64,000 nucleotides of DNA. Origin: Phyllobacterium myrsinacearum. Lineage in GTDB: Bacteria > Pseudomonadota > Alphaproteobacteria > Rhizobiales > Rhizobiaceae. Of this stretch, positions 43,992 to 61,599 are shown piece after piece. The stretch is taken from assembly GCF_014138285.1 (NCBI RefSeq), contig NZ_JACGXN010000017.1, forward strand, positions 1 through 64,000, given 5' to 3'. How positions within the stretch are numbered: the first letter of the stretch is position 1; the number at the start of each line of letters is the position of its first letter. The position numbers and the translations under genes are program-made. Below the pieces are notes generated by a model, which was not told the DNA's origin, ran no database searches, and worked only from the letters and a program-made list of their open reading frames with translations.

Positions 43992-44040
43992 CCTAATTCC
44001 TTCGTGTTGTAAAATTCTGTCAGAAACTCTGAATTAATAA

Positions 44041-44074: not shown

Positions 44075-44077
44075 TTT

Positions 44078-45271: not shown

Positions 45272-45655
45272 TCACGCAAACGTTTTGCGATAAGAATCTT
45301 TTAGCGTGAGAAAATTACCTCGAAACTCGAACACGTCAATGCCCTCGAAGATTATAATCGATCCATCCGGCATGCGCCTTTCAAGCTCCCACAACGCAAA
45401 GCCGCGATTCCCGCTGATAGAGCAGGCGCCGGGCTTGAACGATCCAGGCTCCAGCGACCGGAAAATGCGCGCCAGCTCGTCCTGGATGGCCTGCCTTCCC
45501 GCAAAGATCGTGCCCGGTCCCGGTCCCGTCGACGCAGCATAGACCGCATCGTCGGTAAAATAGCCCATGCAGGCATCAAGGTCATGACGCCGCCAATCCT
45601 CGCCAAAACGGGCCAGCCGTTCGAGGCTCATGGCATCAGAAGAAGTCGAAGACAT
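45272..45655 (-). CDS. SnoaL/ketosteroid-isomerase-like NTF2 protein
   Basis: 127 residues of the NTF2-like fold: LARFGEDWRRHDLDACMGYF, TDDAVYAASTGPGPGTIFAG, and the closing GNRGFALWELERRMPDGSII. Small cavity proteins of this type isomerise or bind hydrophobic compounds. Start ATG 45655 with an AAGGG ribosome-binding site. It is downstream of the deacetylase-like gene on the same strand (63-base gap) and could be the last gene of the left catabolic arm. Confidence 0.8.
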   Translation of the reverse strand: MSSTSSDAMSLERLARFGEDWRRHDLDACMGYFTDDAVYAASTGPGPGTIFAGRQAIQDELARIFRSLEPGSFKPGACSISGNRGFALWELERRMPDGSIIIFEGIDVFEFRGNFLTLKDSYRKTFA

Positions 45656-45718
45656 TCCGTGCAACCCTTTCGTCTGTGGTATCACTCTGCTGTCTGATTG
45701 TCCGGGTGCATGTTTTCC

Positions 45719-46747
45719 TCAGCCATGACGGTGCAGGAAGCCGGTCAGGAAGGCTTCGAAATTGTGCTCAAGCTCAGGTGAATGGTATCCCCCCTCCTGC
45801 ACGATCACCGTCGGCAGGCGCATGGTACCAATGGCCTCACCCATGCGCGCGAAGCCGGTCCGATCCACGCGCATGCAGGCAAAGGGGTCATCTGTCGATG
45901 CATCGAGGCCAAGTGCGACAATCAACATCTCCGGAGCATAATGGCTGATCACGCCGAGCCCGCGTTCGACAGCGGCGCAGTAAACGGCAGTGTCACTCAG
46001 CAGCGGCACGGGCAGGTTCAAATTCGCCCCTTCGCCGGCGCCCCGCCCGCACTCATCAGCATAGCCAGCATAAAACGGATAGAGATCGGCGGGATCCCCA
46101 TGCACCGAGACATGCAAGACATCGGACCGATCATAAAAGATTGCCTGTGTGCCGTTCCCGTGATGGACATCAATATCTATGATGGCAACGCGGTCCGTGC
46201 TTCCGCGTGCAACTTGCGCCGCGAGTGCCGTATTGTTGAGATAGCAAAAGCCGCCGGCCTTGTCGGCATAGGCATGGTGCCCAGGCGGGCGGCAGAGTGC
46301 ATAGGCAGCTGGCGCACCATCAACGACACGCCTCGCTGCTTCAATCGCCGTCATCGCGCTCGCACGGCAGGCCGGCCACGTCCCTTCGACGATCACACAG
46401 CCAGCATCGGCCTGGTAATAGCCCGCGCGTCCGTAGAAATTGCGCGGCAAGCGGTTCATGTAGACATTGGGATGCGCGCTGACACGCAGTTCCGGTCCCG
46501 TGTCCGGCATAGCCCGCCACTCGGCATAACCAGTGGCGAGGAAATCCAGATATCCGGTCTCATGCACGCTGTGCAGGATTTCATCACCCGCATCGGCAGG
46601 CACCGAAGTAGCAATGGACATCCTGTGCAGCGCATTCTGGAATGACACAATGCGGTCCGCTTGTTCCAGATTTGGACGCAGGACCCCTCCTGCCAGCCGC
46701 GTCAGCGGCTGGTGCAATTCTTGACGTGGATCATAGATTGCCAGCAT
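45719..46747 (-). CDS. Histone-deacetylase-family acetylpolyamine amidohydrolase
   Basis: 342 residues. Zn-hydrolase of the HDAC/AcuC/AphA family: His157 and His158 in LCRPPGHHAYADKAGGFCYL, Zn ligands Asp193 and His195 in DIDVHHGNGTQ and Asp282 in ALGLDASTDD, closing QEGGYHSPE. Bacterial relatives remove acetyl or longer acyl groups from polyamines. The spermidine/putrescine-type importer encoded on this arm fits an acylated amine substrate. Cytosolic. Last or next-to-last gene of the left arm. Confidence 0.9.
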   Translation of the reverse strand: MLAIYDPRQELHQPLTRLAGGVLRPNLEQADRIVSFQNALHRMSIATSVPADAGDEILHSVHETGYLDFLATGYAEWRAMPDTGPELRVSAHPNVYMNRLPRNFYGRAGYYQADAGCVIVEGTWPACRASAMTAIEAARRVVDGAPAAYALCRPPGHHAYADKAGGFCYLNNTALAAQVARGSTDRVAIIDIDVHHGNGTQAIFYDRSDVLHVSVHGDPADLYPFYAGYADECGRGAGEGANLNLPVPLLSDTAVYCAAVERGLGVISHYAPEMLIVALGLDASTDDPFACMRVDRTGFARMGEAIGTMRLPTVIVQEGGYHSPELEHNFEAFLTGFLHRHG

Positions 46748-46813: not shown

Positions 46814-47659
46814 TCACTTCGGCAAGCCGTTTGCCCAGGTCGCGATGGCGTCGGCGACGGCAGCCGGCTGCTCCGGAAACAAGGCATGCGACGCATTGGC
46901 AATGGTGATGGTCGTCACCCGGTCACCGAATTGCTGGCGCAATTCACCCCAGCGGTCGCGCGGCTTGAACGGATCTTCCTCAGGAATGACTTCAAGAATC
47001 GGCGCGCTGCCCGCCGCCCACCAGATCGTCCGCGGAACCGGGTTTTCGGATTGCATCTTGATAACTTGGGGATACCATCCCTGCAGCCACAGGGTGGCAT
47101 CATGCCCCTTGGCAAAGAAAGCACCCTTCAAGGCTGCCAGCCGCATATCATCGGACAGGGAAGGTGTGGAGGCATAATCCGGCGCCCACCAGACCAGCGG
47201 ATTTCTTTCTGCGGTATCGCTGGCAGCACCCGCTGCAATCGTAACGCCCCGAACCCGCTCGGGGTACTGGGTGGCAACCATGCGGGCGATGAAATGGCCA
47301 TAGGCATGGCCGACGACAACGGCCCGGCCATCACCCAGGGCATCGATGACATTGGCCGTGTCCCGGGCAAAATCGTAGAGGCTCACGCCTTCCATCGGGC
47401 CCTTGGATTGTCCCACGCCCCTTGGCTGCGGCCGCAGCACTTTAAACCCCGCTTTGGCCAAGTGCTCCGCCGCCGCATCATAATCCTCATAGCCATCACG
47501 CCCCGTCGACGGCAGGATGACGATTGCCGGGCCGCTTCCGTCAACGATGGTTTCAATTTCGGTATTGCCCTTTTTGACGATCTCAACCTGCCTGGCAGCA
47601 GCCGGAAAACCGGCACCAAGCATCAAGACCAGGCATAAAGACAGCTTTCGAACACCCAT
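46814..47659 (-). CDS. Exported alpha/beta-hydrolase-fold protein with Ala in the nucleophile elbow
   Basis: 281 residues: signal peptide (LSLCLVLMLGAGFPAAA), then the alpha/beta hydrolase fold with LRPQPRGVGQSKGPMEG (strand 4 region) and AVVVGHAYGHFIARMVATQY. The elbow is G-H-A-Y-G with Ala119 where the catalytic Ser should be. A cap and the His of NASHALFPEQPAAVADAI remain. Either the enzyme is inactive or binding-only, or another residue is the nucleophile. A similar GHAxG elbow occurs, as I recall, in some proteobacterial relatives, so it may be conserved. GGAAGGA supports ATG 47659. Follows the aminotransferase gene. Confidence 0.82.
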   Translation of the reverse strand: MGVRKLSLCLVLMLGAGFPAAARQVEIVKKGNTEIETIVDGSGPAIVILPSTGRDGYEDYDAAAEHLAKAGFKVLRPQPRGVGQSKGPMEGVSLYDFARDTANVIDALGDGRAVVVGHAYGHFIARMVATQYPERVRGVTIAAGAASDTAERNPLVWWAPDYASTPSLSDDMRLAALKGAFFAKGHDATLWLQGWYPQVIKMQSENPVPRTIWWAAGSAPILEVIPEEDPFKPRDRWGELRQQFGDRVTTITIANASHALFPEQPAAVADAIATWANGLPK

Positions 47660-47736
47660 GCTCTTTCCTTCCCCTGTTTTATGACAATCAAGACTTTGCG
47701 ACACCGCCGGACACGAAGCTGCCCGGGACAAACATG

Positions 47737-49122
47737 TCAGCCGCAGCTTGTTCCGCCCGACGCGCTGTAGGCGTCGAGTGATGCGTCGAGCGCCTGCGTG
47801 AAGCGGGCAACGATTTCGTCGATCTGCTCCTCCGTGCAGATCAGTGGCGGTGCCAAGGCGATGCCAGTACCCAGCGACCGGCAGACAAGCCCTCTTTCGA
47901 ACGCCCGGTTCTGGACACCCAGACCAAACTGCATGTCCGGCGCAAAGGCCTCCTTGCTCTGCTTGTCCCGCACAAGCTCGACGGCCCACATCAGCCCTAC
48001 TCCGCGTATTTCGCCAATCAGCGGGTGATCGGCCAACGGCGCCATTGCCGCCTGCATCCGCGCGGCCAGTGCCGGGACATTATCGATGATCCCGTCCTCT
48101 TCATAAATGCGCAGCGCCTCGACACCGACGGCACAGGCAACGGGGTGCGCGCCATAGGTATAGCCGTGGCCGAAGACGCCGATCTTCTCGCTTTGCGCCC
48201 GCATCCCCTGATAGACCCGCTCGGATATCAGCAGTGCCGAGAGCGGCATATAGGCCGCGGTCAGCGCCTTGGCACAGGTCACGATATCGGGTTTCATGTC
48301 ATAGGTCTGGCTTCCCCACCAGTTTCCGGTACGGCCAAAGCCGGTGATGACTTCATCTGCAACCAGAAGAACGTCGTGCTTACGCAAAACGGCCTGGATT
48401 TTCTCGAAATAACCGGCGGGCGGCACGATCACCCCACCGGTCCCCATCACGGGCTCGGCAAAAAAGGCGCCGACCGTTTCCGGTCCTTCGGCAAGGATCA
48501 GCTGATCCAGCTCTTCAGCAAGCCGGGTTGAAAATGCCTCTTCCGTCTCCCCGGGCTGGCCTTCCCTATAGAAATGCGGACAGGTGACGTGCAGGAAACC
48601 CTCCAGCGGCAGGTTGAAATCCCGATGAAGGTGTGGAAGGCCGGTCAAGCTTGCCGATGCAATTGACGTCCCGTGATAGCTGCGATAGCGCGCGATGATC
48701 TTGCGCTTCTGTGTCTGGCCCATGGCATGGAAATAGTACCATACGAGCTTGATGGCCGTATCGTTGGCTTCCGAGCCGGAGCTCTGGAACAAAACCTTTG
48801 ACATCGGCACCGGCGCGACCTTGAGAAGGCGCTCGGCCAGTTCAATGGCAGGCTCCGTCGAACGATGGGCAAAATTCTGGTAATAGGGCAGCGTATTGAG
48901 CTGTCTGGTCGCAACATCGGCGAGCCGTTTCTCGCTCATGCCCAGTGCCGCGCACCACAGGCCCGACATGCCTTCCAGATATTGTTTGCCGTCGTCATCA
49001 TACACATAGGCACCCTCCCCGCGCATCATGATCGTCGGCCCCAGCGTCTCATGCAGCGCCAGATTTGTTTGCGGATGGATATGCGTGCTGATGTCGCGCA
49101 TTCGTAGCGAGTTATAGGTCAC
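47737..49122 (-). CDS. Class III (omega/polyamine-type) aminotransferase
   Basis: 461 residues of the PLP-dependent class III family. PLP Lys285 in DIVTCAKALTAAYMPLSALL, Asp256 in LLVADEVITGFGRTGNWWGS, plus YHGTSIASASLTGLP and SSGSEANDTAIKLVWYYFHA. Such enzymes transfer a terminal amino group to pyruvate or 2-oxoglutarate and make an aldehyde. With the importer and deacetylase it fits stepwise amine catabolism; an aldehyde dehydrogenase sits in the right arm. First enzyme after the importer genes on this strand (40 bases from the permease stop). Confidence 0.92.
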   Translation of the reverse strand: MTYNSLRMRDISTHIHPQTNLALHETLGPTIMMRGEGAYVYDDDGKQYLEGMSGLWCAALGMSEKRLADVATRQLNTLPYYQNFAHRSTEPAIELAERLLKVAPVPMSKVLFQSSGSEANDTAIKLVWYYFHAMGQTQKRKIIARYRSYHGTSIASASLTGLPHLHRDFNLPLEGFLHVTCPHFYREGQPGETEEAFSTRLAEELDQLILAEGPETVGAFFAEPVMGTGGVIVPPAGYFEKIQAVLRKHDVLLVADEVITGFGRTGNWWGSQTYDMKPDIVTCAKALTAAYMPLSALLISERVYQGMRAQSEKIGVFGHGYTYGAHPVACAVGVEALRIYEEDGIIDNVPALAARMQAAMAPLADHPLIGEIRGVGLMWAVELVRDKQSKEAFAPDMQFGLGVQNRAFERGLVCRSLGTGIALAPPLICTEEQIDEIVARFTQALDASLDAYSASGGTSCG

Positions 49123-49161: not shown

Positions 49162-49989
49162 TTAGTCTGGCGAAGGGCCGGAACGGCCGCGCCGTTGGAT
49201 GAATTGGCCGGCAACCAGGACCACAATCGACAAAACAACGAGTAGGGACGAAATGGCTGCGACCGTCGGATCAACCTGATCACGTATATTGGCGAACATT
49301 CGTTTGGTCAGAGTGGAGTTTGCGCCGCTCGACACAAAGATGGAGACCACCACCTCATCGAAGGAGGTCACAAAGGCGAACAGCATACCCGACAGGACTG
49401 AAATACGGATCTGCGGAAGCGTCACGGTTAGAAAGGCGCGAACCGGCGAGGCTCCAAGTCCCCGGGCGGCACGTTCCAAATTCATGTCAAAGCCGGAAAG
49501 CCCATTCCCGACAGCGATCATGACGAAAGGAATAGCCAGCGTTGTGTGTGCCAGTACAAGACCGGCAATCGTATTGTTGAGACCAAGCCTGGCGTAAACG
49601 AAGAAGACACCGATCGCCACGAAGATCAGCGGAACCATCATGGGCAGCACCAGCATGCCGCGGACGATGGGTTTGAACACGTTTGTCGACTTGTGCAGTC
49701 CGTAACTTGCAAGTGTGCCCAGAATGGTTGCCAAAATGGTTGTCACGGCGCCGACCTTCAGCGACACCCATGTCGACTGGCGCCACTCCGACGAGAAGAA
49801 ATAAGCCTCGTACCAACGGAGACTCCAGACCCGCGGCGGGAACTCCAGATATTGCGAATCCGAAAATGACATGGGCACAACGATCAAGCATGGGATGATG
49901 AGAAAGGCGATAACCAGTCCGACGAGACCATAGAGCCACAATCGCTGAAGGTGCGTGATCTGTGTTGAGGTGGCGGGACGACGCAACAT
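49162..49989 (-). CDS. ABC permease, PotC family
   Basis: 275 residues, six membrane helices of the PotC/YdcV type with the EAA loop LERAARGLGASPVRAFLTVT. ATGA-style overlap with the upstream PotB gene supports ATG 49989. Inner-membrane partner of PotB for polyamine-like substrates. Confidence 0.92.
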   Translation of the reverse strand: MLRRPATSTQITHLQRLWLYGLVGLVIAFLIIPCLIVVPMSFSDSQYLEFPPRVWSLRWYEAYFFSSEWRQSTWVSLKVGAVTTILATILGTLASYGLHKSTNVFKPIVRGMLVLPMMVPLIFVAIGVFFVYARLGLNNTIAGLVLAHTTLAIPFVMIAVGNGLSGFDMNLERAARGLGASPVRAFLTVTLPQIRISVLSGMLFAFVTSFDEVVVSIFVSSGANSTLTKRMFANIRDQVDPTVAAISSLLVVLSIVVLVAGQFIQRRGRSGPSPD

Positions 49990-50891
49990 CAGCGCTTGCC
50001 TCCCCATGCGTCCGGTACGCGCATGAAACGGTTCACGCCCCAAAGAATTCCCCCTGTCACGACCAGCAGAACCACGCTCAATGCGCTCGCCGCTCCCCAA
50101 TTGGCAAATTTGGCCACCATGTCGGCGATCTGGGTCGACCACATGGCCACACGTCCCCCGCCAAGCAGGGCGGGCGTCAGATAAAAGCCAAGGCACAGGA
50201 CAAAGGTCAGGGCGATACCGGCAGAAAGACCGGACAGGGATAGGGGTAGAAAGACCTGCCGGAACGCCTGCGCCGGTGAAGCGCCGCAATTGGCTGCGGC
50301 ACGCAACAGAACCGGATCAATCGCTTTCATCGAGGCGTAAAGCGGCAAGATGAGGAACGGAAGCATGACATGCACCATCCCGATCACGGTTCCCGTCATA
50401 TTGTGTACCAGCGGCAAAGGCTCGCTGATAAGACCGCTTGATAGCAGCCATTGATTGATGATGCCTTGCCGTTGAAGCAGAACGAGCCAGGCGTAGGTAC
50501 GCACCAGAACCGACGTCCAGAACGGCAAGATTACAAAGACCATCAGTATCTGGGTTGCGCGCTGCGGCAGTTGCGACAAAAGATAGGCAACGGGATAGCC
50601 AAGCAGGACGCAGATGGCTGTGACCAATCCAGCAACCTTGAACGTGGTGAGAAAGCTATCAACATAAGCAGGGCGCAGCAGCCGCACATAGTTTTCCGTC
50701 GACAGGTTCCCGGCAGCATCAAATAAGGAAAGCCAAGCCAGCCAGCTGAACGGAATGATCAGGACCGCCGCCACCAGCATCGCAGCAGGCAGCGATAGCC
50801 CGATAAAAGAGATGCCCTGCAGGTTGCGGGAGCGCTGGAGCAGAGAATTGTTGAGAACGACCGGTTCGGTCTCTTGCACCATGACGGTCAT
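49989..50891 (-). CDS. ABC permease, PotB family
   Basis: 300 residues with six helices (SLPAAMLVAAVLIIPFSWLA near the start) and the EAA loop LRAAANCGASPAQAFRQVFL. Middle subunit of the PotABCD-like importer. Overlaps the ATPase gene by 4 bases upstream. Confidence 0.92.
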   Translation of the reverse strand: MTVMVQETEPVVLNNSLLQRSRNLQGISFIGLSLPAAMLVAAVLIIPFSWLAWLSLFDAAGNLSTENYVRLLRPAYVDSFLTTFKVAGLVTAICVLLGYPVAYLLSQLPQRATQILMVFVILPFWTSVLVRTYAWLVLLQRQGIINQWLLSSGLISEPLPLVHNMTGTVIGMVHVMLPFLILPLYASMKAIDPVLLRAAANCGASPAQAFRQVFLPLSLSGLSAGIALTFVLCLGFYLTPALLGGGRVAMWSTQIADMVAKFANWGAASALSVVLLVVTGGILWGVNRFMRVPDAWGGKR

Positions 50892-51949
50892 TGGACCGCA
50901 TCTCCAACAACAACGCTGGCTTCAGGCGTCAGCCATAGCTCGATCTCCTGGCCAGGCACGGGCAGTTCCTTTCCTTCCAACCCCGTGTGGCGGATGGAAA
51001 TTTCGTGGTTACCCGCCAGGCTGACCGATATGAGATGACTGTCGCCGCGATAGACAATGTCCATGATCTTGCCGGCGATCCGGTTGTCGCGTTGCGCGTT
51101 ACCGGCCCAGCGCAACCGCTCCGGGCGCACGATCAGCCAGCCATTGACATCGCAATAGGGCTGGGAAGCAAGGCGCAAGGACCTGTTGCCCAGATGATAA
51201 CTGTTGTCGCGCCATTCGACCGGCAGGAAGCGCGTTTCACCCATGAAGCCGGCCACAAATTTGCAGTTGGGATGATCATAGATGTTCTGCGGTGTATCGA
51301 GCTGGACGACCCTGCCCCGGTCAAGCACCGCGATACGATCCGACATGGTCAGTGCCTCCTGCTGATCGTGCGTCACGTAGACCGTCGTCATCCCCAGACG
51401 ATTATGCAGCCGCTTCAATTCCATCTGCATATGCTCGCGCAGATTCTTGTCCAGGGCCGAAAGCGGCTCGTCCATGAGCAGTATCTTGGGTTCAAACACG
51501 ATAGCACGCGCCAAGGCCACCCGCTGGCGCTGACCACCTGACAGTTCCCCAATGCGCCGTGCCTCCAGCTTGTCCATATGGACGGTTTCAAGCGCACCCA
51601 TGACACGGTTGCGGATCGATTCCCGGTCTATCCCACGCAGTTTGAGCGGATAGGCGACGTTGTCGAAAACATCCATGTGGGGGAATAGGGCATAGTTTTG
51701 AAACACCATGCCAAGGTCACGTTTGTGCGGCGGCCGGGTAATGAATTCCACGTCATCCACCATCAGACTGCCGCTATCGGGCCGCTCAAAACCGGCTATC
51801 ACGTTGAGCAGCGTGGTTTTGCCCGAACCTGACGGCCCCAGAAGGGTAAGGAACTCCCCCGGGTAAATATCCAGTGAAATTCCATCGAGCGCCTTGAACG
51901 CCCCATAGGCCTTGTGAACGTGGCGAATGGAAACCTTACCTGCACCCAT
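50888..51949 (-). CDS. ABC ATPase, PotA family
   Basis: 353 residues. Walker A LLGPSGSGKTTLLNVIAGFE, signature ELSGGQRQRVALARAIVFEP, Walker B ILLMDEPLSALDKNLREHMQ, H-loop VYVTHDQQEALTMSD, then a TOBE domain (RPERLRWAGNAQRDNRIAGK). Energises the Pot-type importer. ATG overlaps the PotB gene on its 3' side. Confidence 0.94.
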   Translation of the reverse strand: MGAGKVSIRHVHKAYGAFKALDGISLDIYPGEFLTLLGPSGSGKTTLLNVIAGFERPDSGSLMVDDVEFITRPPHKRDLGMVFQNYALFPHMDVFDNVAYPLKLRGIDRESIRNRVMGALETVHMDKLEARRIGELSGGQRQRVALARAIVFEPKILLMDEPLSALDKNLREHMQMELKRLHNRLGMTTVYVTHDQQEALTMSDRIAVLDRGRVVQLDTPQNIYDHPNCKFVAGFMGETRFLPVEWRDNSYHLGNRSLRLASQPYCDVNGWLIVRPERLRWAGNAQRDNRIAGKIMDIVYRGDSHLISVSLAGNHEISIRHTGLEGKELPVPGQEIELWLTPEASVVVGDAVQ

Positions 51950-51975: not shown

Positions 51976-53022
51976 TCAGTTTGCCATCAAGAGACTATAG
52001 TCTTCACGCACCAGATTGGTATTATCCCGCCACCAGTTTGCATCGAGAAACACCTGCTTCTTGAGGTTCTCGGGGGACATGTTGGAGCGCGCCAGCACCT
52101 CCTGTGAGAATTTTCCGACCTGGAAAGCCAGACTGTTGGTCGGACCGTAATAGGGCATCATTTCCGGAATGCGGGCCTGAATTTCAGGCGAAACCACACC
52201 CGCAACCAATGTCTGTGCCGCCTTGACATGCGGCGCGCCTTTGAGGATGGCCAGGCAGCCATAACCCAAAATAGCATCCTGATACGTGTAGGAAACGGGC
52301 GCTCCATCGGCAATCACACTGGCAACGCGGCTGCCCCAGATCGCCATCATGTCCACCTCTCCATCCTTGATCAACTGCGAAGACTGAGCACCCGACGACC
52401 ACCATACCGCGACCTTGCTCTTGATCTTATCGAGCGAGCGGAAGGCCCGCTTGCTGTCGAGAGGATAAAGCTCGTCCTTCGGCACACCGTCGGCCATCAG
52501 AGCCACCTCAAGCATTTCCTGCGGATAGGTGCTCAATGCACGGCGGCCCGGAAATTTTTCCGTGTCCCACAAATCCTTCCAGCTTTGCGGCGCCTTGTCC
52601 TTGTAAACATCAGTGCGCCACGCCAGGACGACCGAATAAGAATTGGTGGCAATCCAGTGCTCGCCATATCCCCGCTTGTCGAAGCCGTCGGTGTTGATGA
52701 CGTTGTAATCCAGGGGCTCAAACAGGCCCTCCTTGCCGCCGACCGCGCAATCATCGGATCCCAGATGGACCAGATCCCAGGTCGGTGAACCCGACTGAAC
52801 CTGTACACGCACGGCTGCCAGCCCGTCATGGGTTTCCTCCGCGATGGAAAGCCCGGCCTTGTCGGCCGCCGGTTGCCACAACGTGGCGCGAAGATCCTTT
52901 TGCAGATTGCCGCCGAAGCCGGCGATGGTCACGGTTTCGTTCGCGGCAAAAGATCCTGACGCCATTGCCAGACCAGCAGCACCAATCAACAAACCTGATA
53001 ATGTAATACGTCCGATTTGCAT
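51976..53022 (-). CDS. ABC solute-binding protein, PotD-like
   Basis: 348 residues. Signal peptide (LLIGAAGLAMASGSFAAN), then the SBP fold of the spermidine/putrescine cluster: VQVQSGSPTWDLVHLGSDDC, YGEHWIATNSYSVVLAWRTD and WKDLWDTEKFPGRRALSTYP. Periplasmic receptor for the Pot-type importer. First gene of the left arm; its promoter region holds the paired MarR palindromes. The ligand may be a modified amine or unrelated. Confidence 0.92.
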   Translation of the reverse strand: MQIGRITLSGLLIGAAGLAMASGSFAANETVTIAGFGGNLQKDLRATLWQPAADKAGLSIAEETHDGLAAVRVQVQSGSPTWDLVHLGSDDCAVGGKEGLFEPLDYNVINTDGFDKRGYGEHWIATNSYSVVLAWRTDVYKDKAPQSWKDLWDTEKFPGRRALSTYPQEMLEVALMADGVPKDELYPLDSKRAFRSLDKIKSKVAVWWSSGAQSSQLIKDGEVDMMAIWGSRVASVIADGAPVSYTYQDAILGYGCLAILKGAPHVKAAQTLVAGVVSPEIQARIPEMMPYYGPTNSLAFQVGKFSQEVLARSNMSPENLKKQVFLDANWWRDNTNLVREDYSLLMAN

Positions 53023-53119
53023 TGCTCGTTCTCCCGTTTGAGCTGACTGCTTCTCACGTCGCCTGCTTCCCCTGCAGGATCATCGACACTGTCGACAAAT
53101 GTTTCATATCGTGGCAATC

Positions 53120-53159
53120 TAGTTGATGAAATTAACTATCTAGTTTACATTGTCAACTA
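53120..53159. promoter_or_regulatory. MarR operator pair 1 (left arm and marR)
   Basis: Two 19-bp imperfect palindromes: TAGTTGATGAAATTAACTA (53120-53138) and TAGTTTACATTGTCAACTA (53141-53159). Form TAGTTNA-N5-TNAACTA. Centres 21 bp apart (two helical turns). They lie between the divergent importer and marR starts. Inferred to be MarR sites. Confidence 0.85.
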
Positions 53160-53200
53160 GTTTTTTGACACGTAAATCCAATGCATTTCACGGAGACTGA

Positions 53201-53833
53201 ATGAAACAACCGCAAACCACCCAAACGCACTGGGATGCAAGACCCGACAAAATCGCGGCAGACGGTCAACGCTCCGTTGCCCCTCTTGCCGGGAGTACCG
53301 CACACGAATCCGCATCTGGCCCGCAACACGCCGGGCGAGGTCCGGATGGCGATATCCGCGACCTCTTCTCCTTTGAGCTCCAGCGTCTTGCCGGCCTTTC
53401 CACGCGGATTGCCGCCCTGTCGATACGCCCCAAATATGGCATTACTGCACGCGAATGGCGCGCCCTTGCCGTGCTGAAATATCTCGGAAAAGTACCGCTG
53501 CAGGAGCTTGCCAAGCATAGCGGTCTTCTTAAAAGCCAGATGAGCCGCACCGTTTCGGCAATGATCGAGCGCGGTTATATCGACAAGACCGCCAACCCAG
53601 GCGACGGCCGCAGCATTCTGCTGTGCCTGAGCGCGGAGGGCCTCGATCTGTCGGAACAGATTCTGGACGATTCGTTTGAACGCAACGAGCACATGCTTTC
53701 CACGCTCAGCCAGGCCGAACGCCACATGTTGATTGAACTCCTGCAGCGCGTAACGCGTAGCAGCACGCAGTATTACCACCACCTGAAGCAGACAGCATCA
53801 CAGGACGACTTGCAGCAGCTTGACGAGGAGTGA
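53201..53833 (+). CDS. MarR-family transcriptional regulator
   Basis: 210 residues, longer than typical MarR (about 145) because of a roughly 50-residue polar N-terminal extension. Winged-helix: ALSIRPKYGITAREWRALAV, PLQELAKHSGLLKSQMSRTV (recognition helix), then RGYIDKTANPGDGRSILLCL wing. Sits between the two catabolic arms; its own promoter carries one operator pair and the right arm's promoter carries a second. Probably a repressor relieved by a pathway intermediate such as an acyl-CoA or a phenolic acid (known ligands of the family). GGAGA precedes ATG 53201. Confidence 0.92.
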   Translation: MKQPQTTQTHWDARPDKIAADGQRSVAPLAGSTAHESASGPQHAGRGPDGDIRDLFSFELQRLAGLSTRIAALSIRPKYGITAREWRALAVLKYLGKVPLQELAKHSGLLKSQMSRTVSAMIERGYIDKTANPGDGRSILLCLSAEGLDLSEQILDDSFERNEHMLSTLSQAERHMLIELLQRVTRSSTQYYHHLKQTASQDDLQQLDEE

Positions 53834-53851
53834 TCAACTCCACGCGAAATT

Positions 53852-53891
53852 TAGTTGACATTATGAACTATATGGTTCACTTACTCAACCA
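53852..53891. promoter_or_regulatory. MarR operator pair 2 (right arm)
   Basis: Two 19-bp palindromes: TAGTTGACATTATGAACTA (53852-53870) and TGGTTCACTTACTCAACCA (53873-53891), the latter with perfect 5-base arms. Same form and same 21-bp centre spacing as pair 1. They end 21 bases before the start of the HMG-CoA-lyase-like gene. Confidence 0.85.
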
Positions 53892-53912
53892 AATAGGGAT
53901 GGAGTGAATCGG

Positions 53913-54839
53913 ATGGAACGAACGGTGGTCATCTGCGAATGCTTCGCTCGGGACGGTCTGCAACACGAAACCGCAGCGGTCCCGAGCGGCACAAAGATTG
54001 AACTGATCAATGCCTTCACCGCGGCAGGCTTTGAGCGCATAGAAGCGACCAGTTACAGCAACCCCGTTCGCATACCCTCCTTTGCCGATGCCTCCGCCGT
54101 TCTGGCCGGGATCACGCGCCGCAAAGGCAGTCACTACAAAGCCACATGTCCCAATAGGCGCGCCGTCGAGCGCGCCATTGCGGATGGAGATGCCGGATAT
54201 GGCGCTGATGAACTGAGCCTTCTCGTATCGGCGACGCAGAGCCACACACAACGCAATCTTGGCACGACACGCGATCAGCAATGGCAAAACATTGCCGATA
54301 TGGTGAAATTGTCCAATGGACGCTTTCGCCTAATCGGCGTCCTGTCCATGGCTTTCGGCTGCCCGTTTGAAGGCCGGGTCGACGAAACCGGCGTCCTCGC
54401 CGATATCGGGCGTTTCGCCGCGCTTGGCGTTACCCATGTTTCAGTCTGCGACACCACCGGACATGCAACGCCGTCACACGTAAAGCGGATCTTCCGGCGC
54501 ATCGCCGATGAAATGCCTGACATCATACCGATAGCGCATTTTCATGACAGCCGCGGCAGCGGGATTGCAAATTGCGTGGCCGCCTTTGACGCTGGCTGCC
54601 GCTGGTTTGACAGTGCGTTTGGCGGTGTGGGCGGCCATCCCGCGCAAATCCAGTACGGACAGGGCTATACCGGCAATGTCGCCACCGAGGACCTTGTCAA
54701 CCTTTTCGAAGCCGAGGGTATCCATACCGGCCTTGACCTTACCCGCCTCAGCCATGCCTCGCAGCTGTGCGAAAAGGTGCTGGGCCGGCAATTGCAAAGC
54801 CGCGTCGCCCGTGCCGGCTTCGGCCATCTCGCAGCATAG
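53913..54839 (+). CDS. HMG-CoA lyase-family protein (atypical active-site loop)
   Basis: 308 residues of the HMG-CoA lyase/DRE-TIM family: CECFARDGLQHETAAVPSGT (R13, D14), AHFHDSRGSGIANC (metal His209 and His211, Asn220), GYGADELSLLVSATQSHTQR. The loop that normally reads GGCPYAxGAxGN is SAFGGVGGHPAQIQYGQGYTGN here, so His242 replaces the catalytic loop Cys. This argues against canonical HMG-CoA lyase; cleavage of another 3-hydroxy-3-methyl acyl-CoA, or of a homolog with a new loop, is likely. ATG 53913 has GGAG 8 bases upstream. First gene of the right arm. Confidence 0.8.
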   Translation: MERTVVICECFARDGLQHETAAVPSGTKIELINAFTAAGFERIEATSYSNPVRIPSFADASAVLAGITRRKGSHYKATCPNRRAVERAIADGDAGYGADELSLLVSATQSHTQRNLGTTRDQQWQNIADMVKLSNGRFRLIGVLSMAFGCPFEGRVDETGVLADIGRFAALGVTHVSVCDTTGHATPSHVKRIFRRIADEMPDIIPIAHFHDSRGSGIANCVAAFDAGCRWFDSAFGGVGGHPAQIQYGQGYTGNVATEDLVNLFEAEGIHTGLDLTRLSHASQLCEKVLGRQLQSRVARAGFGHLAA

Positions 54840-54845
54840 GATCAC

Positions 54846-55598
54846 ATGATGCAGCAAACCGTCCAATCAGCCGTCTTGCTTGTCGAGGATCGCGGCGCAG
54901 TCCGCATCATCACGCTCAACCGCCCGGATAAATTGAATGCCCTCAATACGGCATTGACCCAGGCTCTGCACGACGCCCTGATGGCCGCAGACCACGACGA
55001 TGCCATTCGTGCTATCGTTCTTGCAGGAAACCCGCGCGGCTTCTGTGCAGGTGCCGATCTTTCCGAATTCAGCACCCTGACCCCGGCAAATCAGGACCTT
55101 GTTGACAAGCGTGCCGACCTGACCTGCCGCACGCAGGCCATGATGCAGGGCCTGTCGAAGCCCGTGGTGTCCGCCGTGTGCGGGCCGGCCGTCGGCGGCG
55201 GTGCGGGCCTTGCTATCGGCGCTGATATGATGGTTGCTGGCACCAATCTCAAATTCGGTTATCCCGAGCTCAAACACTCGATCGTTCCAGCTCTCGTCAT
55301 GACCGGCCTGCAGCGCTCGCTCGGGCGCAAAGCCGCCTTTGAAATGGTCAGTCTTGGACGCCTGATCGGCGCTGAAGAAGCCTTTCAGCTGGGCCTTGCC
55401 AATCGTGTGGTCGATCCGGACGCTGTTCTCGATACCGCTGTCGGGATTGCGGAACAATGGGCCAGCGCCAACCCGCAGGCCATGGCCGCCGTCAAGACTC
55501 TCTATTACACCGTGGCCGATCTTCCCTATGACCAGGCAATGGCAGCGGGCCGCGCGGTCAATGCCCGGATGCGCGGTTTCAGGGAGACGCAGTCATGA
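54846..55598 (+). CDS. Enoyl-CoA hydratase/isomerase 1
   Basis: 250 residues of the crotonase fold: RPDKLNALNTALTQALHDAL, the oxyanion loop AGNPRGFCAGADLSEFSTLT and GPAVGGGAGLAIGADMMVAG, plus FGYPELKHSIVPALVMTGL. Hydrates an enoyl-CoA or isomerises its double bond. Overlaps the CoA-transferase start by ATGA. A second, different crotonase follows two genes later, so the pathway has two hydration or cleavage steps. Confidence 0.9.
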   Translation: MMQQTVQSAVLLVEDRGAVRIITLNRPDKLNALNTALTQALHDALMAADHDDAIRAIVLAGNPRGFCAGADLSEFSTLTPANQDLVDKRADLTCRTQAMMQGLSKPVVSAVCGPAVGGGAGLAIGADMMVAGTNLKFGYPELKHSIVPALVMTGLQRSLGRKAAFEMVSLGRLIGAEEAFQLGLANRVVDPDAVLDTAVGIAEQWASANPQAMAAVKTLYYTVADLPYDQAMAAGRAVNARMRGFRETQS

Positions 55599-56782
55599 AG
55601 CCGCTTGAAGGGATTCGCATTCTTGATTTTTCCCGGGTTCTCGCCGGCCCGATGGCAACCCAAATTCTGGCCGAACTCGGCGCTGATGTCACCAAGTTGG
55701 AGCGGCCGGGCAATGGGGATGAATCGCGCTCATTTGAACCACGTCTGCCCGAGGGTGAGAGCGCCTATTTCTTCGCCTTCAATCGCGGCAAGCGCTCGCT
55801 GACGCTCAATCTGAAATCCCGCGAGGGCCAGGAGATCGCCGCAAGGCTGGCGGCGCAAACGGACGTAATTGTTGAAAACTTCCTGCCCGGCGACATGGAC
55901 AATTTTAATCTCGGCTATGACAGGCTTTCGGCGAGCAATCCGGGTTTGATCTATGTCTCCAACACCGGTTTCGGCCAGACCGGCCCCTATCGTCATCGCC
56001 ACGGCTACGACACCATCTTCCAAGCTCTGTCCGGCGTTATGCACCTGACTGGCCATCCCGACAGCCCGCCTGCAAAGACAGGCATACCCATAGCCGACAT
56101 GTCATCGGGCTTGTGGATTGCCATTGCCATATTGACCGGGCTGATCGGACGCGGGAAGAACGGCAAGGGATGTCATATCGATCTGGCGATGATGGATGTG
56201 CAGGCAAGCCTGCTGGCACTTGCCGCCGCCCGTCTTTTTGCGCTCGACGAAGACATAACCCGTTCAGGCACGGAACATCCCGGCCGCGTGCCTTCCGCAG
56301 CCTTTCAATGCCGTGACGGAAATTGGCTCCATATCAGCGCAAGTGATCAGCACTGGCCCGCATTGTGCACCATTCTCGGCCTTGATGCGCTTGCTTGCGA
56401 TGCCACGCTCGCAACCAATAATGGCCGCGTCGCAGCACGTGAACGGGTCATGGCATCCATGCGCGCCGCCATTGCCGCACGGGAGCGCCACGCACTTGCG
56501 CAGGAGCTGCGTGCCGGGGGTGTACCCGCCGGGGAGGTTAATACGGTGCGCGACATTCTCAATGATGCCCATATGGCCGACCGGAATGTCGTGGGTGCCT
56601 TTGACCACCCGACCGCCGGGCGCTTTCCGGCTCTGCGCACGCCGATCCGTTTTGCCGGGTTTGATGATCCACAGATCGGGTGCCCACCGTCGCTCGGAGG
56701 CGACACGTTTGATATTTTGTCCGGCGAACTCGGGCTCAGCGGTGACGCCATCGCCAAGCTCAAAGAGGATGGAGTGATTTGA
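55595..56782 (+). CDS. CaiB/Frc-family (class III) CoA-transferase
   Basis: 395 residues. GIRILDFSRVLAGPMATQIL, ELGADVTKLERPGNGDESRS, KRSLTLNLKSREGQEIAARL are the family opening; the catalytic Asp is in ADMSSGLWIAIAILTGLI. Transfers CoA between carboxylic acids, so with the acyl-CoA synthetase there are two ways of making a CoA thioester. Overlaps the previous gene by 4 bases. Confidence 0.93.
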   Translation: MKPLEGIRILDFSRVLAGPMATQILAELGADVTKLERPGNGDESRSFEPRLPEGESAYFFAFNRGKRSLTLNLKSREGQEIAARLAAQTDVIVENFLPGDMDNFNLGYDRLSASNPGLIYVSNTGFGQTGPYRHRHGYDTIFQALSGVMHLTGHPDSPPAKTGIPIADMSSGLWIAIAILTGLIGRGKNGKGCHIDLAMMDVQASLLALAAARLFALDEDITRSGTEHPGRVPSAAFQCRDGNWLHISASDQHWPALCTILGLDALACDATLATNNGRVAARERVMASMRAAIAARERHALAQELRAGGVPAGEVNTVRDILNDAHMADRNVVGAFDHPTAGRFPALRTPIRFAGFDDPQIGCPPSLGGDTFDILSGELGLSGDAIAKLKEDGVI

Positions 56783-56784
56783 CG

Positions 56785-57561
56785 ATGGACGCCACAGCAC
56801 CAGTCACCTGCCATCATGACGGCTCGATAGCCCATGTCGTCCTCAACCGGCCATCGGCGCGCAATGCCTTGAATTTGCCGATGTGCCTCAAACTGCGCTC
56901 GGTCTTCGAACAGCTGGATGACGACAATGCGACGCTGGTCATCCTGCTTTCGGCCAACGGTCCGGTCTTTTGCGCGGGCGCCGATCTGAAGGAACGCGCC
57001 GACAAGGATGAAACCTGGATGATTGCCCGCAGGCGCGCTTCCTTCGCCGCCTATGACGCCATCGCCCGCTGCCGCAAGCCCGTCGTCGCCCTGACGCAGG
57101 GACCCGTTGTCGGCTCAGGCGGCGAAATCCTGATGAGCTGCGATTTCGTCATTGCATCGCAATTGACCACATTCCGCTTTCCCGAACCGCAATGGGGGAC
57201 GGTCGGCGCGACCCAGCGCCTGCAACGCGTCATCGGCAAGATGCGCGCCAAGGAACTTCTGTTCACCGGACGCACCATGCCGGTCGACGAAGCCTATCAG
57301 CGAGGATTGGTTGCACGCATCGTTCCTCCTGATCAACTGGCTGAAACGGGACAGGAAATCGCCGCAGGCATAGCGGCAGCGCCCGCGCTTGCCATGTCCC
57401 TCACCAAGCAGGCCGTCGACCTTGGTCACGAAACTGATTTGGGCAATGGCATCCGCATCGAGATGGCGGCCATCGAACGGTGCCTTGCCGATGGCGGATG
57501 GCGCAACGGCATTCAAAAATTCAACAACCGTACGGGTATGGAAAGGTCTGCCGATGAGTAA
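56785..57561 (+). CDS. Enoyl-CoA hydratase/isomerase 2
   Basis: 258 residues of the crotonase fold: HVVLNRPSARNALNLPMCLK, the oxyanion loop SANGPVFCAGADLKERADKD and VGSGGEILMSCDFVIASQLT. Only about one-third identical by eye to the first crotonase, so the two probably catalyse different steps. The ATG at 56785 is preferred over a TTG at 56779 because GGAG lies 10 bases upstream. Confidence 0.88.
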   Translation: MDATAPVTCHHDGSIAHVVLNRPSARNALNLPMCLKLRSVFEQLDDDNATLVILLSANGPVFCAGADLKERADKDETWMIARRRASFAAYDAIARCRKPVVALTQGPVVGSGGEILMSCDFVIASQLTTFRFPEPQWGTVGATQRLQRVIGKMRAKELLFTGRTMPVDEAYQRGLVARIVPPDQLAETGQEIAAGIAAAPALAMSLTKQAVDLGHETDLGNGIRIEMAAIERCLADGGWRNGIQKFNNRTGMERSADE

Positions 57562-59176
57562 GGGTGATATCAATCTAGACACGATCTGCCCTTTGACCGT
57601 CGCTTCTGCTCTTGCTCGGGCCGCGGCCAGCGCTCCCGATGTGGAAGCGATTGTCGCCAATGATGAGCGCATCACGTATGACCGGCTTGCCATGGACGTG
57701 GCTGTCATCCGCAAGGGGTTGCATGCTCAAGGTGTACGCAAGGGGGACCATGTCGGCCTGTGTCTTGGCAATTGCGTGCGCTGGGTGGCAACATTCTTGG
57801 CGCTCGGCTCGCTGGGCGCCATAACAGTTCCCATCAATACCCGTTTTGTCGCATCGGAAATGGCTTATGCGCTGGGTCAGTCGCAGGTAAAAATACTTAT
57901 TACCTGTGACCGTTTCCTCAAGGTCGATTTTATTGCCCTCTTGCGGCAGATCTGTGCCGGGATCGATAAAGTCCTTCCCGATGCGGCCCTGCCTTTCCTT
58001 GGCAAGGTTATCGTCATCGGAACAAACATTCCCGCCGGCACCGTCAGTTGGGATGAAATGATTCAATCCGGCATGGATAGTGGAAGTCTTGAACCGGCAA
58101 CTGTGGGGCCTGATGATCCGCTGCTGATACAATATACCTCCGGCACCACATCCTTTCCCAAGGGCGTCTTGCTGACCCACCGCAACATGTTGGCCAATGC
58201 CTATTTCTCCGGTCTGCGGATGGGACTGCGCCCCGCCGACCGCTTTCACAGCGCCCGGCCCTTCTTCCATGTGGCCGGCACAACATTGTCCATTCTTTCG
58301 GCCCTGCAGCACATGACAACATTGGTGAGTATGGACCGCTTTGAACCCGGCGAAGCCCTCCGGCTGATGGAGGCGGAAAAATGCACGCATTTTTCCGGCA
58401 ATGACACAATGGCACTGATGCTCCTCAATCATCCGGACCTGCCGGCACGAAAACTCGCCCTGCGCGGGGCATGGCTTGCCGCGTCTTCGACCATCATTCG
58501 CCGCGTCATTGATGAACTTGGCGCACGCGAATGCGTGGTCGGCTATGGCCTTTCCGAAGCATCGCCCAACGTGGCACAATCCTGTTTCTGGGAAGCAGAG
58601 AAAATCCGGGTCAGTGCCGCCATGCGCATACAGTCCGGTATCCACGTGCGCATCCGCACAGCGGACGGGAACGAAGCCGCAACGGGTCAGCCGGGTGAAA
58701 TTCTGGTGCGCGGCTGGAATATCATGCAAGGATATTTCAACAAGCCCGTGGAAACCGCCGCCGCGCTCGATGCGAACGGCTGGCTTTCAACCGGCGATCT
58801 TGGGCAATGCGATAGCGCCGGCCGCCTCACCTTTCTTGGCCGCGTCAAGGATATCGTGCGTGTCGGCGGTGAAAATGTCTCCCCCGCCGATGTGGAGAAT
58901 GTACTGCACCGCAATCCCGCTATCCGGCAGGCCGCCGTTGTCGGCGTTCCCGACGAGCGTCTGGTCGAGGTAACCGCCGCTTTCGTCATTCTCAATGATG
59001 GGGCGACTGCAACCGCTGACGCGATCATGCAATGGTCAAAGGGTGAAATGGCGGGTTTCAAAGTGCCGCGCCACATATGGATCGTGGACAGCTTCGAGAC
59101 CATTGGCATGACCGCCAGCGCCAAGATCCAGAAGAAGCAGCTTGCGGAACATGCACGCACGCTTCTCGGCCTGTGA
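57554..59176 (+). CDS. Acyl-CoA synthetase (AMP-forming)
   Basis: 540 residues. AMP-binding motifs: IQYTSGTTSFPKGVLLTHRN (P-loop), GYGLSEASPNVAQSC, STGDLGQCDSAGRLTFLGRV and KDIVRVGGENVSPADVENVL, ending IGMTASAKIQKKQLAEH with the catalytic Lys. Makes the CoA thioester of an acid with ATP. Overlaps the hydratase by 8 bases (ATGAGTAA). Medium- or branched-chain acid is likely, unproven. Confidence 0.92.
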   Translation: MSKGDINLDTICPLTVASALARAAASAPDVEAIVANDERITYDRLAMDVAVIRKGLHAQGVRKGDHVGLCLGNCVRWVATFLALGSLGAITVPINTRFVASEMAYALGQSQVKILITCDRFLKVDFIALLRQICAGIDKVLPDAALPFLGKVIVIGTNIPAGTVSWDEMIQSGMDSGSLEPATVGPDDPLLIQYTSGTTSFPKGVLLTHRNMLANAYFSGLRMGLRPADRFHSARPFFHVAGTTLSILSALQHMTTLVSMDRFEPGEALRLMEAEKCTHFSGNDTMALMLLNHPDLPARKLALRGAWLAASSTIIRRVIDELGARECVVGYGLSEASPNVAQSCFWEAEKIRVSAAMRIQSGIHVRIRTADGNEAATGQPGEILVRGWNIMQGYFNKPVETAAALDANGWLSTGDLGQCDSAGRLTFLGRVKDIVRVGGENVSPADVENVLHRNPAIRQAAVVGVPDERLVEVTAAFVILNDGATATADAIMQWSKGEMAGFKVPRHIWIVDSFETIGMTASAKIQKKQLAEHARTLLGL

Positions 59177-59186
59177 GGGAGTCCCC

Positions 59187-60179
59187 ATGCGCATAGAAAC
59201 ATCCGTTACCCGGCTTCTTGGCATTGACCTGCCGATCATCCAGGCCGGCATGTCCTGGGCTTCCTCCAATGCTGCGCTCGCCCTTGCAGTCTCGCAGGCG
59301 GGCGGGCTTGGCATCATTGCCGCCGGGCCGATGTATCGCGACGATCTGGCCGCTGCGATCGACGAGGTGCGGGCGGGCACTGACCGGCCTTTCGCCGTTA
59401 ATTTGCCGCTCTATCGCAAAGGAGCCGAGGAAATAATCGACCTGCTGGTCGAAAAGCGGGTTCCGGTCCTCGTTGCATCACAGGGATCCCCAAAAAAATA
59501 TCTGCATCGTTTCAAACCGCTTGGCACGATATGTCTCCACGTCGTTGCAGGCGAGGACCATGCCCGCAAGGCGGCCGATGCCGGCGTTGATGCACTGATC
59601 GCCGTGGGCGGCGAGGCTGGCGGTCATCCGCCGCCGGATCTGGTTTCAACATTGGTGCTGGGGCGTGCCATCGCCAAAGCCGTTCCGCATGTGCCGCTTG
59701 TTCTCAGCGGCGGATTTACCGATGGCCAGGGACTGGCGGCAGCCCTGTCACTGGGCGCAGGCGCGGCACAGTTCGGCACGCGTTTCATGTTATCGTGCGA
59801 GGCCCGGCTTCATGACGCCTATAAGGACCTTGTGCTGCAGGCGCGCATTGGCGATACGGTTGTCGTGGGGCGCGACCTCGGCATGATCCGCGTGCTTCGC
59901 AATGTTTTTGCCGACCGCATGATGGAAATCGAACGCCAGGGTACGCCGGAAGACGTCAGGCGCGCGTTTTTCCAATCAGCCTCCCTGAAAGCTGCGGCCT
60001 TTGGCGGCGACACCCAAATGGGCAAGATCGAGGCAGGCCAGAGCGCTGGCTTGGTTTCGGACATTCTACCCGCTGCAGACATCGTGAAGCGGATAGCACT
60101 CGAATATGCGGCAACCGCAGCCGCCCTGCCCCGGCCCGTTCCCAATAAAAACGAGGAAAGAAAACTCCATGCTGGATAA
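59187..60179 (+). CDS. Nitronate monooxygenase/2-nitropropane dioxygenase family
   Basis: 330 residues of the FMN-binding NMO family: GIDLPIIQAGMSWASSNAAL, AVGGEAGGHPPPDLVSTLVL and LSGGFTDGQGLAAALSLGAG. Class I or II membership is not clear from sequence; several family members in catabolic clusters act as enoyl reductases or detoxify nitro compounds. GAGGGAG supports ATG 59187. Overlaps the aldehyde dehydrogenase start by 11 bases. Confidence 0.88.
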   Translation: MRIETSVTRLLGIDLPIIQAGMSWASSNAALALAVSQAGGLGIIAAGPMYRDDLAAAIDEVRAGTDRPFAVNLPLYRKGAEEIIDLLVEKRVPVLVASQGSPKKYLHRFKPLGTICLHVVAGEDHARKAADAGVDALIAVGGEAGGHPPPDLVSTLVLGRAIAKAVPHVPLVLSGGFTDGQGLAAALSLGAGAAQFGTRFMLSCEARLHDAYKDLVLQARIGDTVVVGRDLGMIRVLRNVFADRMMEIERQGTPEDVRRAFFQSASLKAAAFGGDTQMGKIEAGQSAGLVSDILPAADIVKRIALEYAATAAALPRPVPNKNEERKLHAG

Positions 60180-61599
60180 ACCACTCCTGATTGACGGCAC
60201 CTGGCGTGCGCCCTCCGGAACCCGCGCGGGCGATGTCAGAAATCCTGCAACCGGCCAGACAATCGCCCGCCTGCCTTTGTGTGAAAGGGCCGATCTCGAC
60301 GACGCCCTGGCGGCTGCCGCCAAAGGCTTTCAGACATGGCGCAAGATGACAGCGCTGGAACGGGCTAAAATCATGCATCGCGCGGCGGCGCTTCTGCGCG
60401 AGCGGGCCGATACAATCGCCCACCACATGGTCCGTGAACAGGGAAAACCGCTGGCCGAAGCGCGCGGTGAAGCCAACGCCGCGCCGGAACACGTCGAATG
60501 GCATGCCGAAGAAGGGCGCCGAACCTATGGCCGCGTCATTCCCTCCCGCATCCCCGGGGCCCGCCAGATGGTGATCCGGGAGCCTGTCGGCCCCGTTGCC
60601 GCCTTTTCGCCCTGGAACTTTCCCGTCAATCAGCTGGTGCGAAAAATCTCCGCAGCGCTCGCCGCGGGTTGTTCGATCATCGCCAAACCGCCCGAGGAAA
60701 CCCCATCGGCGTGCATTGAGCTCGCCCGCACCTTCCAGGATGCCGGTGTGCCCGATGGTGTCATCAACATCGTCTTCGGTATTCCCGCGGAAGTATCCGA
60801 ATATCTGATCGCATCCCCCATCATCCGCAAGGTATCCTTTACCGGATCGGTCCCGGTGGGCAAGCATCTGGGCGCATTGGCTGCCGCCGGGGTCAAACGC
60901 GCGACGATGGAACTCGGTGGACATGCGCCGTTCATTGTCGCGCAAGACGCAGATATCGAGGCGGCCGTCCGTCTTGGCGTTATGCTCAAATACCGCAATG
61001 CAGGCCAGATATGCGCGTCACCAACCCGCTTCTACATTGAAGAGCCCGTCTACGACGCGTTTCGCATGGCCTTCGTCGCAGCAGCCAAGACCCTGAAGAT
61101 CGGCGACGGTCTTGACGCGGGGACGCAAATGGGCCCGCTGGCAAACCCGCGCCGGCTCGATGCCATGGACGGTTTTGTCGAGGATGCCCTTGCTACAGGA
61201 GCACATCTGGATTGCGGCGGGCGGCGGGTCGGCAATGCCGGTTTCTTCTTCGAGCCGACAGTGTTGTCCAATGTCCCCGAAAACGCCCGCATCATGAATG
61301 ACGAGCCTTTTGGCCCCATCGCCGCATTGGCCAAAGTTACCTCCATCGACGAGGCAATTGCACGCAGCAACCGCCTCGAATTCGGTCTCGCCGCGTTTGC
61401 TTTTACGCGTTCACTTGCAACCGCGAACCGGTTCTCAGACGAGCTGCATGCGGGCATGGTGTCGATCAATCATTTCGGCATTGCAGCGGCAGAAACACCC
61501 TTCGGCGGCATCAAGGAAAGCGGCTATGGCAGTGAGGGGGGCGCGGAAAGCCTCGATGCTTTCATGACCGTGAAACTGATCAGTCATATCGGAGCCTGA
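60169..61599 (+). CDS. NAD(P)-dependent aldehyde dehydrogenase (succinate-semialdehyde type)
   Basis: 476 residues. Catalytic Cys282 in RNAGQICASPTRFYIEEPVY, Glu248 in TMELGGHAPFIVAQD, coenzyme loop SFTGSVPVGKHLGALAAAGV, PWNFPVNQL at 149-157. Closest in layout to succinate-semialdehyde dehydrogenase/GabD. Would oxidise the aldehyde left by the transaminase. GAGGAAAG precedes ATG 60169. Confidence 0.92.
   Translation: MLDKPLLIDGTWRAPSGTRAGDVRNPATGQTIARLPLCERADLDDALAAAAKGFQTWRKMTALERAKIMHRAAALLRERADTIAHHMVREQGKPLAEARGEANAAPEHVEWHAEEGRRTYGRVIPSRIPGARQMVIREPVGPVAAFSPWNFPVNQLVRKISAALAAGCSIIAKPPEETPSACIELARTFQDAGVPDGVINIVFGIPAEVSEYLIASPIIRKVSFTGSVPVGKHLGALAAAGVKRATMELGGHAPFIVAQDADIEAAVRLGVMLKYRNAGQICASPTRFYIEEPVYDAFRMAFVAAAKTLKIGDGLDAGTQMGPLANPRRLDAMDGFVEDALATGAHLDCGGRRVGNAGFFFEPTVLSNVPENARIMNDEPFGPIAALAKVTSIDEAIARSNRLEFGLAAFAFTRSLATANRFSDELHAGMVSINHFGIAAAETPFGGIKESGYGSEGGAESLDAFMTVKLISHIGA

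Follow-up and report, generated by a model that had tools for sequence, protein, structure and literature searches.

Two tandem pairs of 19-bp palindromes flanking a marR gene are very probably operators of a local repressor over a two-armed catabolic cassette in Phyllobacterium

Analysis of a 64,000-nucleotide stretch of Phyllobacterium DNA (the window) indicates that four 19-bp palindromes, arranged as two pairs around a gene encoding a MarR-family regulator (Table 1), are very probably the operators of a local repressor acting on marR itself, on an importer/amine arm of eight genes and on a CoA-catabolic arm of eight genes. The left pair is located in the gap between the start of the gene for the importer binding protein and marR, and the right pair in the one that separates marR from the gene that opens the right arm. 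We consider it highly likely that the regulator encoded between these palindromes binds them as paired dimers on one face of the DNA and represses marR and both arms until it is released by a ligand. MarR-family local regulators use palindromic operators of about 16-20 bp at their own and at neighbouring promoters, and it is by sequence and conservation alone that the four palindromes of the window agree with this pattern.

Table 1. Positions of the palindromes, the putative marR promoter, the regulator gene and the genes of the two arms in the window.
Feature	Position	Strand	Remarks
Site 1 TAGTTGATGAAATTAACTA	53120..53138	.	left pair, importer-proximal; exact match; PWM 23.7
Site 2 TAGTTTACATTGTCAACTA	53141..53159	.	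left pair, marR-proximal; exact match; PWM 26.6
Site 3 TAGTTGACATTATGAACTA	53852..53870	.	right pair, marR-proximal; exact match; PWM 33.6
Site 4 TGGTTCACTTACTCAACCA	53873..53891	.	right pair, operon-proximal; exact match; PWM 22.9; least conserved of the four
Putative marR promoter, TCGACA-N14-TGN-CAATCT	53092..53120	+	ends on the first base of site 1
marR	53201..53833	+	MarR-family regulator, 210 aa; core about 52-209, disordered N-terminal tail about 1-48
Left arm 1: periplasmic binding protein, polyamine/opine-type ABC importer	51976..53022	-	
Left arm 2: ABC ATPase (PotA-like)	50888..51949	-	
Left arm 3: ABC permease (PotB-like)	49989..50891	-	
Left arm 4: ABC permease (PotC-like)	49162..50289	-	true start probably downstream of the listed ORF start, which overlaps the preceding gene
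Left arm 5: class-III omega-aminotransferase	47737..49122	-	
Left arm 6: alpha/beta hydrolase	46814..47989	-	true start probably downstream of the listed one, which overlaps the aminotransferase gene; a site pair also accompanies its relative in genome G265
Left arm 7: acetylpolyamine amidohydrolase-like (histone-deacetylase fold)	45719..46747	-	
Left arm 8: SnoaL-like small protein	45272..45685	-	
Right arm 1: HMG-CoA-lyase-like enzyme	53904..54839	+	likely start ATG 53913
Right arm 2: enoyl-CoA hydratase family	54846..55598	+	
Right arm 3: class-III CoA-transferase	55595..56782	+	best model succinate--glutarate CoA-transferase, below its cut-off
Right arm 4: enoyl-CoA hydratase family	56779..57561	+	
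Right arm 5: acyl-CoA synthetase	57389..59176	+	listed ORF start too far upstream
Right arm 6: NMO/FabK-like flavoprotein	59142..60179	+	
Right arm 7: aldehyde dehydrogenase (SSADH-like)	60106..61599	+	
Right arm 8: GMC oxidoreductase (choline-dehydrogenase-like)	61634..63229	+	

An earlier note on this DNA had proposed that four elements fit the consensus TRGTTNA-N5-TNAACYA and that both pairs share the same spacing. Scanning with this consensus (19 bp per site) returned four zero-mismatch matches exactly in the span where they had been placed, and the pitch measured 21 bp in the left and right pair alike. When up to two mismatches were allowed, ten matches were found in the window, the six further ones carrying two mismatches each, compared with 2.96 +/- 1.58 in 100 shuffled sequences, none of which reached ten. 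Dinucleotide shuffles of the two intergenic gaps (n=20,000) gave 19,998 sequences without a site, two with one site and none with more, versus two plus two sites in the real gaps. A position weight matrix (PWM) built from the sites of relatives alone, with no Phyllobacterium sequence but with training sites that had themselves been picked by the consensus, scored the four window sites at 22.9-33.6 bits, versus 11.4 for the next best place in the 64 kb; the GTT and AAC half-site bases were invariant in its training set.

The whole genome (5,971,067 bases) was then scanned with the reversed pattern as a control, a check that the earlier note had called for and that came out differently for the pair and for the single motif. 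The 40-bp tandem pattern at up to three mismatches was found at these two places only, with no match for the control, so that the tandem pair is confined to this locus. The single motif gave five exact matches and 14 with one mismatch, that is 19 places versus 37 for the reversed control, and since the control is the commoner of the two, the single motif has no genome-wide significance when one mismatch is allowed. Thirteen of the 15 exact or one-mismatch places outside the locus lie inside mechanically called ORFs of at least 100 aa, including the fifth exact match, within an ABC-permease gene, and the best-scoring outside place (C15:94913, core PWM 21.4), within secA. The two others, C1:889829 (core PWM 13.2) and C2:553378 (core PWM 5.0), were taken as chance matches, judging from their low PWM scores. 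In the remainder of the window's own contig (scanned as L065 and L070), no other site scored above PWM 7. At up to one mismatch, a wider regulon in this genome was rejected as an explanation, since 13 of the 15 outside places are intragenic and the remaining two score low.

Relatives of the regulator were sought in 397 genomes of the order, in 394 genomes of the family, in a contig search (5 loci) and among plasmids (8 records); the nearest named relatives were those of P. calauticae (92%) and P. myrsinacearum (90%). We scanned 27 loci (L041-L045 and L055-L076), counting a pair when both sites together had at most four mismatches at the 21-bp pitch; L064 was taken as the same contig as L041, and L059 and L076 are alike in the left gap. 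The left pair was found in register beside related marR genes at 14 of these 27 loci. It is accompanied by the two-arm order at 11 of them (L041, L042, L043, L044, L045, L059, L060, L064, L071, L072 and L076), of which L043 lacks matches to both the aminotransferase gene and the aldehyde dehydrogenase gene, and at L055, L056 and L061, where the order is marR-ALDH-SBP-ABC-HMGL, both pairs again flank marR. Every left-pair locus has one or two right-hand sites: both are found at seven (L041, L042, L043, L055, L056, L061 and L064), those of L043 being degenerate with two and one mismatches, and a single one, with site 4 missing, at the other seven (L044, L045, L059, L060, L071, L072 and L076), site 4 being absent from the Shinella/Sinorhizobium-type loci. 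These last seven loci offer a natural comparison between one-site and two-site arrangements. The 13 loci without the left pair comprise the remainder of the window's contig, five loci with other MarR genes and no cassette (L062, L063, L066-L068), L069, and five loci at which a MarR gene encoding a 37-53% identical protein stands beside cassette genes with weak pairs or single sites (L057, L058, L073, L074 and L075, the sites of L074 being seen by PWM only). The cassette was also found on plasmid records of Shinella zoogloeoides and of two Sinorhizobium strains.

Sites 1 to 3 are conserved far beyond their surroundings. In an alignment of the gaps (11 rows after L064 was dropped), the specified bases were 97.7% identical in site 1, 96.2% in site 2 and 95.5% in site 3, compared with 66.7% for the remainder of the left gap and 62.1% for that of the right gap. 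The specified bases of site 4 were also 62.1% identical and thus show no extra conservation. The earlier idea of two matched pairs consequently holds for the left pair, kept in 14 loci, but strict pairing does not hold on the right, with site 4 lost in half of them and conserved no better than the gap in which it lies.

Among the 394 family genomes, the pair at up to three mismatches was found in seven, six of which are exactly the six that encode a MarR protein at least 60% identical to the window regulator (G000, G756, G757, G563, G680 and G265); the seventh (G400, three mismatches) carries it between another MarR gene and an amidohydrolase gene. Since the reversed control at up to three mismatches reached 10 of the 394 genomes by our own count, only matches with zero to two mismatches are informative, and all of these fall within the six. 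Genome G265 contains a third pair (PWM 27.5 and 31.2) at a distance of 19 kb from marR. It is flanked on one side by the gene for a relative (70% identity) of the alpha/beta hydrolase of the window and on the other by a divergent ligase-NMO operon; the cassette is split here, and the pair reappears before the split-off part. A further match in G680, its third (contig 11, L089 8651-8690, two mismatches), consists of two sites that together form an almost perfect palindrome of 40 bp; it lies outside the cassette, preceded by an SDR gene and followed by an alpha/beta-hydrolase gene. The earlier note's interpretation is supported in part: the single local regulon of one regulator is borne out by pairs that are unique in the genome, conserved, co-distributed with the regulator and, in G265, present a third time at the split-off part of the cassette.

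Two palindromes 21 bp apart (zero and two mismatches) were also observed at L069 (3916/3937), beside an unrelated operon and a gene for a MarR protein about 30% identical, and two others at L091 (9809/9830), beside another MarR gene and with three mismatches, a level that the control reaches. In both cases, the MarR gene has a DctM-type TRAP transporter gene on one side and an amidohydrolase gene on the other. The tandem 21-bp pitch may mark a wider MarR clade.

By its domain and its predicted fold, the protein encoded between the pairs is a MarR-family member. A MarR winged-helix domain was detected (Pfam MarR_2, 50.0 bits, cut-off 27, 3.2e-13; MarR, 48.4 bits, cut-off 24.6), and the top Foldseek matches of an AlphaFold2 monomer model (16 sequences; mean pLDDT 74.1, pTM 0.54) were MarR-family proteins. 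Of the 12 other rows from left-pair loci, 11 share the putative recognition helix KSQMSRTVS unchanged, and L056 departs from it by one residue. The long N-terminal extension, which the earlier note had found unusual, is real, with 50 residues before the conserved DIRDLF, but it does not distinguish this regulator: its length and sequence vary among 22 sequences and it is predicted to be disordered, and we rejected it as a special functional feature. In the model, nearly all of residues 1-48 have a pLDDT below 50, while 13 of the 16 ten-residue blocks after residue 50 reach at least 80.

Three of the sites overlap conserved elements of putative promoters. The elements of the putative marR promoter and their spacing are the same in all 12 aligned rows, two of which (L041 and L064) stem from one contig, and the last base of its -10 element is the first base of site 1. 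Site 2 contains TTGACA in its minus strand in all 12 rows, as the putative -35 element of the importer operon, and site 3 contains it in its plus strand in 11 of the 12, as that of the right-arm operon; both fit what would be expected for promoter occlusion. The stretches that follow each TTGACA at 17 bp downstream make poor -10 elements for sigma-70, and a sigma-70 consensus scan reported none of the conserved elements of the marR, importer and right-arm promoters; its two matches, with 0.6 expected, were at 53083-53112 on the plus strand (a different TCGACA element) and at 53888-53860 on the minus strand, in antisense orientation. Since the -10 elements are poor and the promoters were missed by the consensus scan, the start sites are putative.

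In the mechanism that we propose, one MarR dimer would bind each 19-bp palindrome. Since the 21 bp between the centres of a pair correspond to two helical turns of B-DNA, the two dimers would stand abreast on the same face, which makes cooperative binding plausible, and neighbouring dimers would probably aid each other's binding, as the spacing suggests. The left pair would cover both promoters of the marR/importer gap, accounting for autoregulation and for control of the left arm, and the right pair would cover the promoter of the right-arm operon. Ligand-free dimers would occlude these promoters. Their release by a substrate or intermediate of the pathway, which may be an acid derived from an amine, would switch on uptake, deamination/deacylation and CoA-dependent breakdown together. 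That the regulator acts by repression is suggested by the position of the sites and by the practice of the family.

The palindromes could instead be MarR operators on which each dimer binds alone, with a 21-bp pitch that simply reflects the distance from the -35 element to the -10/start region, each blocked by its own site. We regard this as possible but rather doubtful. The TTGACA does lie in the marR-proximal site of each pair, with the second site over the -10/start region, and one site seems sufficient at the seven loci with a single right-hand site; however, the pitch is kept at the left pair of 14 loci, at the third promoter of G265 and at L069, despite its distant MarR protein and unrelated operon, L091 adding less because the control reaches its level of three mismatches too. 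Chance palindromes in AT-rich intergenic DNA are a negligible explanation: single sites at one mismatch are admittedly no commoner than the reversed control, but the shuffles, the uniqueness of the pair in the genome and its conservation across genera all argue against it, and we rejected such an artefact on the basis of the shuffles and the cross-genus conservation.

Two other readings concern the regulator itself. Another transcription factor could bind the palindromes, with marR as a mere neighbour, given that the assignment to MarR is based on comparison of sequences; this is very improbable, since the sites travel with marR in rearranged loci and track its distribution among the family genomes. 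An activator, or a repressor of one arm that activates the other, is somewhat less remote and still improbable. Yersinia HpaR was described as repressing one operon and activating another in the accessible part of PMC7180172. In the window, however, the sites overlap putative promoter elements rather than standing upstream of them. The regulator gene is bracketed by sites in autorepressing MarR systems, and the window's marR is bracketed in the same manner. Tandem operators bound by a ligand-released MarR repressor thus remain our preferred reading.

If this repressor governs both arms, a regulon of at least 17 genes, as the earlier note had counted, is reached with eight left-arm genes, marR and eight right-arm genes, but only if each arm is one transcript, which was assumed from gene packing. 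The left arm is shorter in loci outside Phyllobacterium: with the exception of the hydrolase gene of G265, matches to the alpha/beta hydrolase and SnoaL-like genes were found beside the cassette in Phyllobacterium loci only, and the other two-arm loci gave none. Just past the left arm (42858-44773), an FAD monooxygenase gene (weak match to a Tet(X) model, 149 bits versus a cut-off of 750) is divergent from a TetR-family gene, and these two genes are probably a separate unit.

The chemistry of the cassette is less readily explained. The first enzyme of the right arm passes the HMG-CoA lyase subfamily model PRK05692 (253.7 bits, cut-off 246). The Cys of the GGCP motif has a catalytic role in HMG-CoA lyase, and this motif is seen in 6nds and in 2cw6 (human HMGL); the window enzyme instead reads GGHP, followed by a four-residue insertion relative to 6nds. 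GGHP was found in 14 of 14 sequences compared, window included, and ECF(A/T)RDGLQ is also present. The enzyme, with His in place of the usual Cys, may cleave another substrate or use another acid/base. No biotin carboxylase was identified among the 16 arm genes, so that leucine- or terpene-type routes seem unlikely. The likely substrate, named here with low confidence, is an amine or acylated amine from which a branched dicarboxylyl-CoA would be formed. More tentatively, we can imagine an undescribed route, plasmid-borne in some species, in which an amine or N-acylated amine is taken up, converted to a branched dicarboxylyl-CoA and cleaved by the GGHP relative of HMG-CoA lyase, and which would be governed by a MarR clade with tandem 19-bp operators on a strict 21-bp pitch, these operators having spread to further promoters as operons split and being common to at least one distant member (about 30% identity) that controls another pathway.

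These observations provide a high-confidence operator code, a regulon boundary and an autoregulatory layout for an apparently uncharacterised MarR regulator, and a known operator code offers a direct way to the substrate of the conserved cassette. The regulatory principle is familiar, more so than the chemistry of the cassette. The regulator, its ligand and the pathway appear uncharacterised: a literature search, in which sources were available in part, found no work on this regulator, motif or cassette, which is weak evidence of novelty since the search was limited. The window motif is absent from the accessible part of PMC6449761, and PheR is placed with the IclR family in that of PMC13273656.

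Several known regulators resemble the one described here. The best NCBIfam match of the window regulator is the model of HpaR, the repressor of the hpa-meta operon (TIGR02337), although its 45.1 bits are far below the cut-off of 121.2. As far as PMC7180172 could be accessed, HpaR represses a catabolic operon locally and protects two sites at its promoter, and the Yersinia sites are 15-bp TTAA-N4-TTAA elements at -189 and -8, unlike the adjacent pairs on a 21-bp pitch found in the window. Neisseria NadR, which is released by 4-hydroxyphenylacetic acid, likewise has several operators at one promoter, but according to the available part of PMC2791445 these three operators are spread along the promoter, one over the -10 element and start site, with looping proposed, and its target genes are others. 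Saro_0803 of Novosphingobium is also a MarR-family protein, with an inverted repeat over the predicted -10 box of a catabolic gene from which resveratrol releases it; its repeat, as given in the accessible part of PMC10046596, is nonetheless GCAATA...TATTGC, and the window protein scores 25.1 bits versus a cut-off of 200 for its model. With MftR of Burkholderia thailandensis (8ylg, with operator DNA), the best Foldseek match (E 6.9e-09, 25% identity), the likeness is structural, and sequence identity is low. In the parts of these reports that were available, the layouts of HpaR, NadR and Saro_0803 thus differ from that of the window in site sequence or in spacing. Judging from its sequence, the system would nevertheless work like a standard MarR local repressor with tandem operators, a kind of control that is already known, conserved but ordinary.
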